Source of the DNA: Lobulomyces angularis
Lineage: Eukaryota; Chytridiomycota; Chytridiomycetes; Lobulomycetales; Lobulomycetaceae
NCBI GenBank assembly: GCA_027604685.1
Contig: JADHYX010000066.1
Location: forward strand, 1 to 34,294
Direction of reading: 5' to 3'
Length of the DNA: 34,294 bases
Shown: one piece after another, positions 13,034 through 19,973 of the stretch
How the letters are laid out: each line of letters starts with the position of its first letter
How positions within the stretch are numbered: the first letter of the stretch is position 1
Position numbers and translations under genes: made by a program
The notes under the pieces: generated by a model
Database searches by the model: none
What the model saw: the letters and a program-made list of their open reading frames with translations, nothing else
What the model was told of the DNA's origin: nothing

Positions 13034-13262
13034 TTAAACAGGTTCTTTTTTTACTATTATTTTTATTAATGTATGGCAAAGTCCAGAGTAGTACTATTTT
13101 TTTCCATGTAAATTTCATTCTATTTTCTTTTTTTTTCTTTTTTATTTCTCAACATGAACTAAAAAAATTTTGGAATCAAATAGGAATGTGTATAAAATAT
13201 TTTTTTAAAAAAATTCTATTTTAATTCTAAAAGTCAAAAAAAATAGCATTAAACTTACATAT

Positions 13263-16200
13263 TTATTTAGCGACTCTAACAAATACATCTTCCAATGTCG
13301 TTTGATTTAAAGCCCAATCTACCATATTCATTTCAGCAGCATAGGTCTGAAGGTTTGAAAAAACCGAAGCTACATCTAGTCCTACTTCGTTTGGGATATT
13401 GAATTGGAGAATAACATTCCATGTTACCTCTGTTGACTCCAGTGTAATTTTTGATAACACGGTAGTAATAGGAGTTTTTGAACGGGATATTACACTTGCA
13501 CTTCTTGATATTTTTTCTTTTATAAGTGACTTCACTTTATCAATTGCATAATTCTCTTTTTCAGTAAATTCTTGTTCACTTGGAAGACTTAATGGCGAAA
13601 AAACTTCAGAAAGGGAAATTTTCATACTCAACTTAAAATATAATATTAGCAAAATCAACCAGGAAATAATAATATAAATTATACCTTCAATCCATCACCA
13701 AATTTATTTTTTAAATGAACTTGATTTCCAATAACTTTCATTTTACCATTCACTACGATTCCAATTCGGGAACATAAAGCGTCTGCTTCCTCCATAGAAT
13801 GTGTTGTAATTATAATGGATCTTCCAGGATCTTGTGATATTTTATTAATCACTTTCCAGATATTCTGTCGTGTATCGGGATCTTTATTTTTTTTCAAAAT
13901 TAATACAATCTATTACTAAAAAAAACAATATTTACCTAATCCAGTAGTTGGTTCATCAAGAACTAAAATACTGGGGGAGGCTGTCATGGCAATAGCAATG
14001 GATAGTCTTCTCCTCATTCCTCCAGACATCTGACTTGCTAATTGATTAAATGGATCTCCATCTTTCGGATTTAAATGATAATTAATAAGTAAGTAACAAA
14101 ATAATAAAAATAATTTTATACCTAAGCCAACATCTTCTGCAATTTTTCTTACAGTTCCACGGATTTTATTCTTTGGAATCCCGCGCAAACGGCAATAAAA
14201 TAATAAATGTTGTTCAATAGTCAAATCTTAAAAAGAAAAGACAGAAAAATTAAATATAAAGATCGTTCATTAATATTTACCTGCCCAAACAGTATCAAAC
14301 TGTGGACATAAGCCAATTAATCTCCATAATTCTTTAACAGTTTTGATGTCTTGTCCAGCAACTTCAATTACTCCATTCGTAGGACTAGCTAATCCAGTGA
14401 AGCAATTAATTGTTGTAGATTTTCCTGCTCCATTAGGACCTTTCAAAGAAAATTTATAAATTTGAATGAATAATATCATACCAAGTAATCCAAATGTTTC
14501 TCCAAATTTAACATTTAACGATATATCAGAAACAGCAATTTTGTTACCAAAAACCTTTTGTAAATGTCCAATATTAATTGCAGATTTCGAATCATTCTTC
14601 TTTCCTAATGATTCCATCACTGTCTGTTGCTCTAAAAGTACATCGGGATCAGTAATAGCATCTTCAGCATCGGTTATATGGGGCAAAAGACTATTTTTTT
14701 TTTTAAATAGGCCAAAAAATGGATCTATAGAAGCTGTCAAAAAAATGAAATAAAACATTAATTTTTTTAACCAATAAACTGTTCATACCTGTATGTTTGC
14801 CAGGTTGAATCATATGCAAATATATTCCCAATAATCCAACAAAAGTACTGCTTGCTATCCAAATACCAATGACAGGACCAAGTACATGAAGCTTGCCACT
14901 AGTAAAACAAATATTTAAGCTATGTGCAAAAGCAATGAATGGAAAAATTGAACTGGCTAATTCAGATAATGCTCCAGTCGACGTATTTGAAGTAATCAAC
15001 ATAAAAGATGCTATGCATGAAGATAGGATATAAATCATGAAAGTTGCCAAGGAACTACTGATAACTTTCTTAAAAATGGAGGAAATTAAAATTGCCATGC
15101 AAACTAAAGAATGAGCCCAAAGAATAAATGCTATAACTATAAACGTAGGGGATTTTGAAGTTTGAAACGGTTTGATTAATAAAAACCCAATAATCATGGT
15201 AAAAATGTTGATACAAAGGCATCCAAGAAACCCATAAATGTAGTTTCCTAACCAGTAGGTAAAAGGACGCAATCCTTGAATACGAAGCATCTCCGTTAAA
15301 TTTTGAGATCTTTCTGTCACAAATAGTGATACCATTCTCGGGAAAAAAAACAGGGTAGCAAAAAAAGTAATAAGAACTGTCATGATATATCCAACTTGTT
15401 GAAAAGAATTTCCTTCGTATATCGTAGGATAAGTTTTCCAAACTGTATCTACGACTGTTTCAGAATTTGGTGCCAGTCCTAGCTTTTTCTTCTGTAACGC
15501 GTTACTCATTGTGTTAATAATGACAGAAATTTGCAATTCCATATCTTTTGAATTATATGGGCTATACAATTCGCCAGCAACTACGCATTCGGTGTCATTC
15601 TGAAAGAAAACTGAAGGATATCCAGAGTCATCTTGTAAAGGTCTGTAAATAAATATATCATACGATACCAGACCTGCTTCCACATTTAAATTTTTTATAT
15701 CTAAACCTAAATCCGGATATGTATTGTTTAAAGTTTGCCAAAATTCGGCAGGTGAAGTTAGAAGAACAAAATTTGTTTTATCTCCAATTAGAGTTGAGCA
15801 AGTACCAGCATTTGCCGTCTTTTCTGGAAGTAAAGCTTTTTGTTTTTGAGAAAAATAATCCTCCATGTTTTGAGTTTGAACGTTGACAGCACTTAATGGC
15901 AGATTCAAGACTTGGGGATTTCTATCAGGAGTAGTAGTAGGCAAAGTTGAAAGATTCACTGCAACATTTGTAAAGAATGATGGATCCAGTAGTGATTGTA
16001 ACGCTATATCACCAGACACAAGAGAATCTTTGTACCAAAATCTAGGTCGTAGCACGGAAACTGTATCTATACCATTTGAATTTGGAACCATATTTGGGGT
16101 TAGAGGTGGCATAAAGAGAAAATTGTCCCTTGAATTGGTACTCAATAATGTTCTAACAATTTGCTGCGGCGAAGATTCCGGTAAACCAGAAAATGGAGAA

Positions 16201-19200
16201 TTTTGATTGTTTGTTGTTTGGTTGACAAAATGTTCAGGGTTGCACGATATTTTAGAATCAAAATTGCTTGAGTATATAAAAGTGGCCCCAGCACAAGTGC
16301 CCCCATCTTCGTTAATGTATCTGCTTGAAAACATTCCCATTGACATTAAAGCCAAGATGATGTTCAACAAGATTATGCACAATGCTGAACAAATGTTTGT
16401 TTTTTTCATTCTTATATCAAGAGATGCATTCTTTATCACTATCCCTTTAATTTGAGAACCAAGTATCCCCTTTGAGGAAGATTGATTTTTAGAACTAACT
16501 GCCAGTTTTTCTATTGCATTATCTTGTTGTGTATTTAACAAAGGGCTTTCTTCTGAAACTTGTTCTTGTAATTGCCAAAATGATTCGAAACTAATAATGT
16601 CATTCTCAGAGTATTGTTTGCTGTTTGTTACACCTAACGCACAAGAATTGCAAATAATATCTAATGGAAATAAGAAGGGTAGTGATTAATAGTGAAATAA
16701 AAAAAAACCGTCGTTTACCTGAAACTACTACTTTTATTCCATTTGCGGTAAAAAGGGTAACAGTTTCAGTATTATTAATATTACAAAGTCTGCAAATCAG
16801 AGTTTTGGTGACTTCCACATTAACAGCATCATTTAATGAGCATAATTTTAAAAACACCTGAGCAAAATAAGAAATCAGAGTTACAAAATTTTTTTTTAAA
16901 TACCTGCTCCAAAGTAGAGTTACTCACAGACCATTCTACTTCCTTTTCTCGCTGAAGTGCTTTTAAAAAAGAAGTCAACTGAACAGAATTTCCTTTTCCA
17001 ACACCAACATTAACAGCACCAGCAGCTGATGATACAATCGTACTACCTGGTAAGACAGTTTTTATCCAATTTTCCAAAGATTTGGTAACGTTTTTTGTAT
17101 TCTCCTCATCAATTCCCTTTCTTAACATTGATATTTGATACCCATCTCCAAAATGATTTTTCAGAAATAGAGGAGTTCCTGATGCTTTTATTTTTCCTGC
17201 ATGCATAATTGTTATATAGTCGGAAAGAGAGTCAGCCTCTTCCATCTAATCAAAATTTAGATTGGATGAATACAAAAAATAAAAATAAAAAATTACAGAA
17301 TGGGTTGTAAGAACAACAATTTTATCTTTTTTTAACTCTTCAATAACTTTCCAAATTCCTCGCTTAGATACAGGGTCTATGAAGGAAATATTAACAAAAA
17401 AAAAGAAAATTAACTAAAAATCATACCTAAACCAGTAGTTGGTTCATCAAGGAAAATAATACTGAGGTCGTCACCAACCGTAGATAGAATTACACTTAGA
17501 CGACGCATCATTCCTCCTGAAAAACCCCCCACTTTTTGATGAGCTGCTTCCAGTAGTTGAACTTGGCTCAATTTACCTTCAACATACTCTTTTAAAGACA
17601 AGTTGCCAAGGTTAACATTTCTAAAGCGCGCATAAAAAGAAATATGCTCCGCTGCTGTTAAGGAGGAATACAAAAGATCCTATATGAGGAAGTTTTCAAT
17701 TATAATTTATTCTTTGAAAACTCTTACATCTTGTGCACAGGTGCCCATTTTCAATCTAATAGAATTCATATCAGTTTTTACATTTAAACCAAAAAGGAAA
17801 GCCTCTCCATAAGTTGGGCTGGTTACTCCCTATAAAAAAGAGGTTTAAGCATTAATAAAAATAGTAAATTTTAACTAACAGAAAGCATGTTTATAGTGGT
17901 AGTTTTGCCACAACCATTGTGACCTAAAATTGAATAAACATTTCCTTTTTCCATTTTTATGGTAAATTCCTTCACAGCGGACGTAGTTTTATAGACTTTA
18001 GAAAGTTTGTGAGTTCTAACACTATCAGATTTCAGACTCAAAGCACGTTCTTCAATTAAGAGATCTCCAAAAGATTCGTACAAATCTTCTTTCTTATTCT
18101 CTTTCTGAATACCAATCCAATAGGCTTTAGTGAAAAGAAAGTAAAATTCTAAAGAATATCCCTGTTCAGTTTCCAGCATTTGATTAAAGTACCATGACAA
18201 AAACAGAAAAAATGGAATTGATAAGATGATAAATATTAAAATTAGCATTGAAGATGGGTGTTGCTGCCATGCAAGGTAAAATGGTGTTCCAATTGTAAAC
18301 GATTCATGCAATGGTGCTAAATTACATAAACTTGAACTAAATTGAGGAAATCCAACATAGCTCTCGGTGTTGTTATTTAAATTACTTTTTTCCACAATGT
18401 TTACCATATTATTAAATATTTGACCATAGCCTTGAAAAAAACAAAAAAATGAAAATAAATAAAACAAGAAAATCAACAACTTAAAAGCTTACCTAACCAT
18501 GGTAGTAAAATGTATAAAATTTTTCCCCAAGCACTTGTAGATATTTGAAGAAAATAAGGAACAGAATTAGTTTCATATGGAAAGTTGGTAAAAACAACCA
18601 AATTTGTTACAACCATTCCGATACCGATTAAACCTGGCATTGGAGTAATAAATGGAAAAAAAAAAATTAGCATTAAGTATTTTGAGATATGAAAAAAAAA
18701 TTACCTTTCGCAACGCTAATATAAAGTGGTTTTGAAAAAATTGAAGATAAAAATAGTCCTACAGAGGAAAGACTTAAGCAAAAGATAAAGGTAACAATAA
18801 AGATAATGGCGGAAGATATATTTTGATTGTTAAAGTCTACTATATTTTTCATAACAAATCCAGTAAACGATACAGCACCAACACTTACAGATGCTGCAAG
18901 TAAGGATACGAAGATCATCGGAAAGAATGAAGAAATCCAGTAAGTGCTTTCTATCAAACCCTAGAAAAACCAATAATTATCAAAATATAAGATAAAATTA
19001 ACCATACCATCCTAAAAAAAAAAAAAAAAAATTAAAAATTAAAAATTAAGTATTTCAATAAATATTGCCTTTTACCTTCTGATTGGATTTAAAAGTTTCT
19101 TTCTTTTTTCATTCGCTACACTAGACAATGATAAACTCAAAACTGGAAGGAAAAAAAAAGGCAGTATTACGGGAATCAAATATGCGTTCATATTTGGACC

Positions 19201-19973
19201 AATTGAGGACGTAGATGAAGAAAATTCCTCGATTTTCCTCAAATTTAAAGGTTTATCTTCCGGTTTAATGAATTTTATAGTTGTGTCAAATTTTTTGTTT
19301 GCGTTGGTGTTAGAGCCACTAGAGGATATTATAGCTTGATCCAATGCTAGCTGTAATGCTGGAATGGATGAAAGAACATGTTCCCGATATATAGAAGTTG
19401 AGGTATACTCCTTCCATACAGAATACTTTGTCAAATTGGAATTTTCCTGCACATCAAAGGAAACAAAAGCAAGTAAAGAAGAGGATCTAAATAAGAAAAA
19501 ATAATTAAAATAAAAAGAGAAAACATGAAAACAAATACTTGATATTTTCATATTCCAGTAAAAATTTATTTGCCATTTCAATTTCATTAGGAAAAGGAAT
19601 GACATTTGTTTGATAGGGTAATTGTTGAGATTGCGCAAAGGCTTTCATAATTTTGGTATGTTTTTCATCATTTGGTTGAAAATAAATATATGGACAGTTA
19701 ACATCACAAAGAGGAAGCTTTAAAGCGATTGGTGCGACAAAATCATTTTCAGTTAGTATTCTTGGAGCAACTGAAGATGATATTGCTGTATTTGCCAACG
19801 AAACGAGGATGGGACCTAGAAACGGAAAGCATATGGTTATGAATAAAAGGATTTTTTTGTTAAATAAAATCTAAAAAAAAAATTTTAAGGAAATAAAATC
19901 ATTTTTAAAAAACCTTGAAGTTCTTTGCAGACAAGGCCCTGAACTGACTAGACCACGTTTTATAGTATTTCAT
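13263..19973 (-). CDS. ABCA-family full-length ABC transporter, 19 exons
   Basis: Predicted 1916 residues. Exons: 19914-19973, 19539-19870, 19076-19486, 19008-19011, 18705-18960, 18493-18633, 17880-18430, 17728-17829, 17427-17679, 17297-17376, 16904-17245, 16719-16857, 14789-16660, 14482-14733, 14281-14439, 14122-14226, 13936-14061, 13685-13881, 13263-13631. Each half has a first membrane helix, a large extracellular loop and a membrane bundle, then an NBD. NBD1: Walker [11 protein letters not shown] (about 573-582), signature [12 protein letters not shown], Walker [15 protein letters not shown]-loop THS. NBD2: [10 protein letters not shown], signature [27 protein letters not shown]. Both ATP sites look intact. 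The post-NBD regulatory parts carry TLEQVFLKL and [12 protein letters not shown], the latter at the C-terminus as in ABCA1-type proteins. The family moves lipids across membranes; full ABCA proteins are absent from budding yeast. The first donor (GTTTTTT) is weak but gives KNFK-ILFNKK, as in other ABCA N-termini. Confidence 0.96.
19008..19011 (-). other. 4-nt micro-exon of the ABCA gene (exon 4)
   Basis: A long polypyrimidine tract ending in TAG precedes 19011, and a GTATGG donor follows 19008, leaving only GATG. Exon 3 ends in phase 2 (AG) and exon 5 begins GGT in phase 0; AG+GATG supplies Arg-Met. The product reads [14 protein letters not shown], matching the conserved Met-Gly-Leu preceding a membrane helix in ABCA proteins. 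Direct splicing of exon 3 to exon 5 gives a stop two codons later (GGG TTT GAT is not in the needed frame). Confidence 0.8.

Follow-up and report, generated by a model that had tools for sequence, protein, structure and literature searches.

How does a gene keep its reading frame across a place where two long open exons, each of them recognisable in the proteins of its relatives, cannot be joined to one another without running into a stop? The question is posed by the stretch of DNA that we call the window, 34,294 nucleotides that form the start of a contig (C66, 75,710 bases) in the 20.8-Mb, 533-contig assembly of Lobulomyces angularis, and by the ABCA transporter gene that lies within it. 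A sequence-only reading of the window had proposed that four bases, GATG, sit between those two exons as an exon in their own right. Here, we argue that this is very probably so: judging from the DNA and from related genes and proteins, we put at about 0.9 the probability that the ABCA transporter gene of L. angularis, intact and full-length, has GATG as a 4-nt exon.

It is worth saying first what kind of gene this is. All 18 of its introns are GT-AG, and they run from 42 to 71 nt (Table 1 gives the coordinates). An ABCA transporter is marked by two rounds of an ABC2_membrane_3 domain and then an ABC ATPase, and that is the order we find: Pfam matches ABC2_membrane_3 and ABC_tran in residues 1-855 and a further ABC2_membrane_3 (PF12698) in the second half (15557-14823), the second ATPase being assigned by similarity only. 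Exon 1 (MKYYKTWSSQFRALSAKNFK) is similar to the start of P0078, a protein of the chytrid Entophlyctis luteolus.

Table 1. The ABCA gene and the features around its predicted micro-exon, in window positions
Feature	Positions	Strand	Description
Whole ABCA gene	13262..19973	(-)	19 exons joined, giving 1916 aa
Exon 3	19076..19486	(-)	411 nt, open frame, phase 2 end, ...CCA ATC AGA AG
Intron 3	19012..19075	(-)	64 nt, GTAAAA...T18AG, GT-AG, phase 2 in Arg268
Exon 4, micro-exon GATG	19008..19011	(-)	4 nt: last base of Arg268 and Met269
Intron 4	18961..19007	(-)	47 nt, GTATGG...TTCTAG, GT-AG, phase 0, Met269/Gly270
Exon 5	18705..18960	(-)	256 nt, open frame, GGT TTG ATA GAA = GLIE; aligned to relatives
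Predicted spliced junction, exon 3 end / exon 4 / exon 5 start			ATCAGAAG-GATG-GGTTTG

Both introns, and the four bases between them, are exactly where the sequence-only reading had placed them, and it was right, too, that a stop blocks the direct joining of exons 3 and 5. With GATG skipped, the protein reads ...NPIRRV-stop and is finished at 269 aa; with intron 3 or intron 4 retained, it stops at 268 or 286 aa. With GATG included, exon 5 starts in phase 0, and the frame carries on to its full 1916 residues. The four bases had also been credited with an Arg-Met pair: Met and the frame they do provide, but of the Arg they provide only the last base. Retention of intron 4 (19011-18954) leaves 17 open codons past the Met, VWLILSYILIIIGFSRV, which look like a membrane helix, and then comes the stop. 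If a micro-exon is an internal exon of no more than 15 nt between two GT-AG introns, GATG is one, and splice paths, relatives and Pfam all say that the frame and a conserved motif need it. The micro-exon reading has held up in the Met-Gly pair and spacing of the relatives, in spliced alignment (some queries disagree) and in the intron position of a paralog.

What do the relatives say? We took a segment of 441 residues from the window protein and aligned it with 20 relatives chosen from 77 matches (alignment A1: P0002-P0009, P0013, P0014, P0016-P0022 and P0024-P0026, in which P0006/P0013 from Denticeps and P0016-P0018 from Eimeria are near copies). They share only 17-27% identity with the window protein. 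The end of exon 3 aligns with a helix and with the EKE...MG element of these proteins, in which the distance from EKE to the Gly column is 11 residues in 19 of 20 cases and 13 in one; the residue before that Gly is Met in 13 of the 20, Leu in four, and Trp, Tyr or Ile, once apiece, in the other three. A second search used residues 1203-1600 of the deposited L. angularis protein P0001, a query without the end of exon 3, and found P0078 (34% identity over 93% of that query), the protein sequence that alone represents other chytrids here. Where the window gives RRMGLIES, P0078 reads RRMGLLES (over a longer stretch, KEKQQGLLGVLRRMGLLESALW in P0078 and NEKRKKLLNPIRRMGLIESTYW in the window), and P0082, a transcriptome sequence by its name, reads LRMMGLHE. 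Many ABCA proteins conserve a Met-Gly-Leu element, and it is the Met of this element that GATG would supply.

Could some other route through this region serve the gene as well? We enumerated the paths across 19486-18705, admitting no intron shorter than 38 nt. A path could have one intron, GT-AG or GC-AG and without an upper limit on its length, or two GT-AG introns, each of at most 200 nt. This left 503 open paths (51 with a single GT-AG intron, 25 with a single GC-AG intron and 427 with two GT-AG introns), which we scored against a profile of those of the 20 A1 relatives that have more than 100 residues there, leaving out the window's own row. The path through GATG ranks first of the 503 at 31.2 bits, and its runner-up scores 14.7; the best path with one intron reaches 10.8 bits, and the deposited model reaches 7.1. 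When the GATG, deposited and single-intron models were all cut at the same place and given to Pfam, the first matched ABC2_membrane_3 at 46.6 bits against a cut-off of 31.6, and for the other two there was no match to that domain at E of 10 or less (HMMER filters may hide weak ones).

One might still ask how easily chance makes such an exon. We shuffled the 115-nt interval 20,000 times, preserving its dinucleotides and requiring flanking introns of 38 nt or more. An in-frame internal exon of 15 nt or less turned up 901 times (4.5%), so an in-frame micro-exon is, by itself, not very unlikely by chance. An in-frame 4-nt exon turned up 149 times, one ending in Met 39 times and one reading Arg-Met or Lys-Met 8 times (0.04%). 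For chance to put the correct residues in the correct place is unlikely.

We have also let the proteins choose their own introns, with a script that aligns protein to DNA, charges a fixed penalty (6, 10 or 14) for each GT-AG intron and leaves splice sites unscored. Over the whole gene, P0078 yielded 18 introns at all three penalties; 15, including both introns of the micro-exon, are identical to those of our model, and the remaining three are off, at one end or at both, by 4 to 28 bases. With P0082, too, both introns of the micro-exon came out at every penalty, together with 8 to 11 extra introns and 3 or 4 missed ones. In a regional test against 19560-17700, the 21 queries were the paralog C466, described below, and the 20 A1 relatives (first 1400 residues). 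At penalties 6, 10 and 14, the alignment took the GATG pair with 14, 12 and 10 of the 21 queries and did not take it with 7, 9 and 11, and some of the queries that chose it place an extra intron inside exon 3. The misses at penalty 10 were P0002, P0004, P0014, P0016-P0019, P0025 and P0026, which include Eimeria and two rotifers (by name); at penalty 14, P0009 and P0020 joined them.

The splice sites themselves are of uneven quality. Against a matrix built from the 16 other introns of the gene, with ranks taken among its 312 GT and 320 AG, intron 3 scores 5.7 bits at its donor and 14.3 bits at its T18-AG acceptor, the second best AG of the 320. Intron 4 has a donor of 4.0 bits (rank 37 of 312; leave-one-out range of the other introns, 2.1 to 10.7), tied with a rival donor at 19002 (4.0 bits, rank 36), and an acceptor of 2.7 bits (rank 50 of 320; range -6.8 to 12.4). 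These sites are inside the gene's range but weak. Branch-point-like YTNAY words are present in introns 3 and 4, but they say little, because 17 of the 18 introns of this AT-rich gene carry them.

Might GATG, then, be a real exon whose inclusion is regulated, such that leaving it out brings an early stop and switches the transporter off? The weak sites of intron 4 would suit such a switch, Trichoderma Xlr2 is reported to have a micro-exon under regulation (PMC11121469), and five mis-spliced forms that we constructed all end at 268-286 aa. Early stops, however, are no evidence of regulation, because any exon that sets the frame will show them, and we regard a regulated GATG as improbable.

We hold it very unlikely that the deposited model is the right one. 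P0001 matches our ABCA protein (98% over 98%), and within the displayed portion of that alignment, the differences lie at the micro-exon gap. Its record is named EF-1 alpha, and its first 1020 or so residues belong to another protein, which we take to be elongation-factor-3-like; its ABCA part begins at residue 39, the first 38 ABCA residues being missing. At the site in question, it ends exon 3 at 19171 (CCC/GTAATA, the slash marking the junction) and reads a 9-nt exon, GATGGTATG (19011-19003), and DGM comes to stand before GLIES, with DG replacing 32 residues (VILPFFF...NPIRR) for a net loss of 30. This model stands in the public record, keeps an open frame and has a second donor that scores equal to the GATG donor. 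Yet its profile score puts it at rank 25 of 503, its first intron would be 159 nt long in a gene whose other introns are so much shorter, its donor at 19170 scores 0.7 (rank 112 of 312), the Pfam transmembrane match is lost, and it deletes the element that has the same spacing in 19 of 20 relatives.

Equally hard to credit is a single long intron, 19075-18947, with an AG/C join that reads NPIR-STYW, dispensing with the micro-exon and losing RMGLIE. Its frame is open, it ranks fourth of the 503 paths as the best of those with one intron, and spliced alignment chose it with P0020 (penalty 14) and with P0025 and P0026 (10 and 14); against this, the intron would be 129 nt, its acceptor, which scores -1.9 bits (rank 141 of 320), lacks a pyrimidine tract, and the Met-Gly-Leu element and the Pfam match would both be gone. 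We give as little credence to a pseudogene or to an assembly error, with a single 115-nt intron and a miscounted base in exon 3 or 5. Although the sequence is known from one assembly alone, the remainder of the 1916-aa frame is intact, such an intron would supply no Met and would exceed all the others of the gene in length, the exact length results when GATG is included, as P0078 and the paralog C466 show, and a miscount in T18 would fall within an intron and have no consequence.

If GATG is an exon, where might so small a thing have come from? One search of the genome pointed to two further contigs, and another hit more than a dozen, in many cases at genes for other ABC proteins; the comparison of the Met-Gly-Leu site covers four distant ABCA-type paralogs only, named here for their contigs (C466, C382, C258 and C290). 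C345 (L012), whose frames we take by eye to be ABCG-like, was set aside, and C85 (L038), given a motif scan only, held nothing usable. C466 (L034), a full transporter and the closest paralog among those found, reads ETINRMGLYGSAYW with a single intron, ...GAA ACT ATT AAC AG/GTAAAT...TTTAG/A ATG GGG TTA TAC, and this AG/A ATG GGG junction, recovered whether the query was the window protein or P0078, has the position and phase of window intron 3. C382 (L013) has EMMG/L, with a phase 2 intron in the Gly codon. C258 (L035) has KMNG/L, also with a phase 2 intron in the Gly codon, and C290 (L036) has MKMNGL inside one exon, intronless there; these two were read by eye from the frames, spliced alignment having misaligned the L035 site with the window query, placed it one codon off with P0078 and misaligned the L036 site with P0078. 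At the position of intron 4, none of the four paralogs examined has an intron. The second half of C466 carries an intron of its own, RIQ AG/T L (L034 5939-5989), at the codon corresponding to the Gly of Met-Gly-Leu.

A tree of 11 rows groups the window protein, C466 and Entophlyctis at 100/99 and pairs the window with C466, a long branch, at 83/87 only. Intron positions (residue and phase) common to C466, with 23 found, and the window, with 18, are 131-2, 268-2, 585-0, 1652-1 and 1794-0; the spliced C466 protein used for this comparison holds two stops, and therefore, part of its model is wrong. Intron 3, being common to both genes, predates their split if the pairing is right. Intron 4 was probably gained 4 nt away from that older intron, or else lost in C466, and we favour gain because it takes one step and accounts for the micro-exon. 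DNA matches elsewhere hit the AT-rich end of intron 3, and a brief look at their pattern found no like intron on other contigs, hence no sign of a copied intron.

Two introns less than 50 nt apart in homologous genes make a near intron pair, and here, we have 268 phase 2 (in the window and C466) and 269 phase 0 (in the window), 4 nt apart. According to PMC2891723, the members of such pairs are typically mutually exclusive within a gene, and the filter used there removed genes holding both; the window gene, on our gene model, needs both. It may be that introns have landed repeatedly in the Met-Gly-Leu codons of the ABCA genes of this chytrid (at Arg phase 2, Met/Gly phase 0 and Gly phase 2, all within 6 nt in the five genes examined), that the window holds a near intron pair with both its members and that the micro-exon is a by-product of intron gain, an idea over which we find ourselves evenly divided.

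GATG lies between two introns that are closer than is usually thought possible. How could a cell include it in the mRNA? Its two splice sites would be too close for simultaneous binding, and for that reason, we infer that each short intron would be recognised as a unit and that the introns would be removed successively. Intron definition, which the sequence-only reading put too firmly, is a sound inference by analogy, following the argument made for plants in PMC4674806 (on APC11) and PMC8831610. Were the 64-nt intron, with its T18-AG, to go first, it would leave an ordinary long exon that ends AAGGATG/GTATGG for the second step. As for history, the older intron, common to C466, was most likely followed by a later one, 4 nt downstream, which would have cut the micro-exon from what had been an ordinary exon.

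Such a history is a clear candidate route for the origin of tiny exons, in which a second intron comes to lie 4 nt from an older one that a paralog has as well. Near introns are often taken to be mutually exclusive when they serve as phylogenetic markers, and the case suggests that they may be able to coexist in a short-intron genome. It is also a case in which annotation misread a tiny exon and conserved protein sequence was deleted.

How does GATG stand beside what is known? Among the matches listed, the literature on micro-exons and chytrids shows no chytrid micro-exon in titles or the beginnings of abstracts, the literature on 4-nt exons shows none on a fungus by title, and the match for the L. 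angularis genome concerns snow-algae chytrids. Size is not what is new, because exons of 1-9 nt, though rare, are already published: PMC12940212 reports a 1-nt exon in CYP621A of the fungus Fusarium (published 2026) and cites exons of 2-5 nt in Arabidopsis, Drosophila and human and of 8 nt in Phanerochaete. The sequence-only reading overstated matters when it put four bases at the limit of exon recognition, because 1-nt exons have been published (PMC4674806, PMC8831610, PMC12940212).

CYP621A is alike in several ways, being fungal, with a phase mismatch in a conserved motif through which the exon was found, an exon that annotation missed and a short total intron length; it differs in its single nucleotide and in the 20 orthologs and RNA reads behind it (PMC12940212). 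Its authors see a cryptic exon adopted to offset a lost base, whereas in the window, a paralog with the first intron alone speaks for the arrival (or departure) of a second intron close by. The plant micro-exons of 1-15 nt (for example, APC11 and VPS55), as described in PMC4674806 and PMC8831610, are alike in that they set the frame, are misannotated, are explained by intron definition and stepwise removal and vary in intron number among gene copies; they are RNA-verified and conserved across species, whereas GATG is read from the DNA of one species. The near intron pairs of PMC2891723 are alike in having two positions a few nucleotides apart in homologous genes, and they differ in that, here, both positions occur together in one gene. 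It is the presence in one gene of two introns separated by 4 nt that is less usual, and to that, the novelty of GATG is limited.
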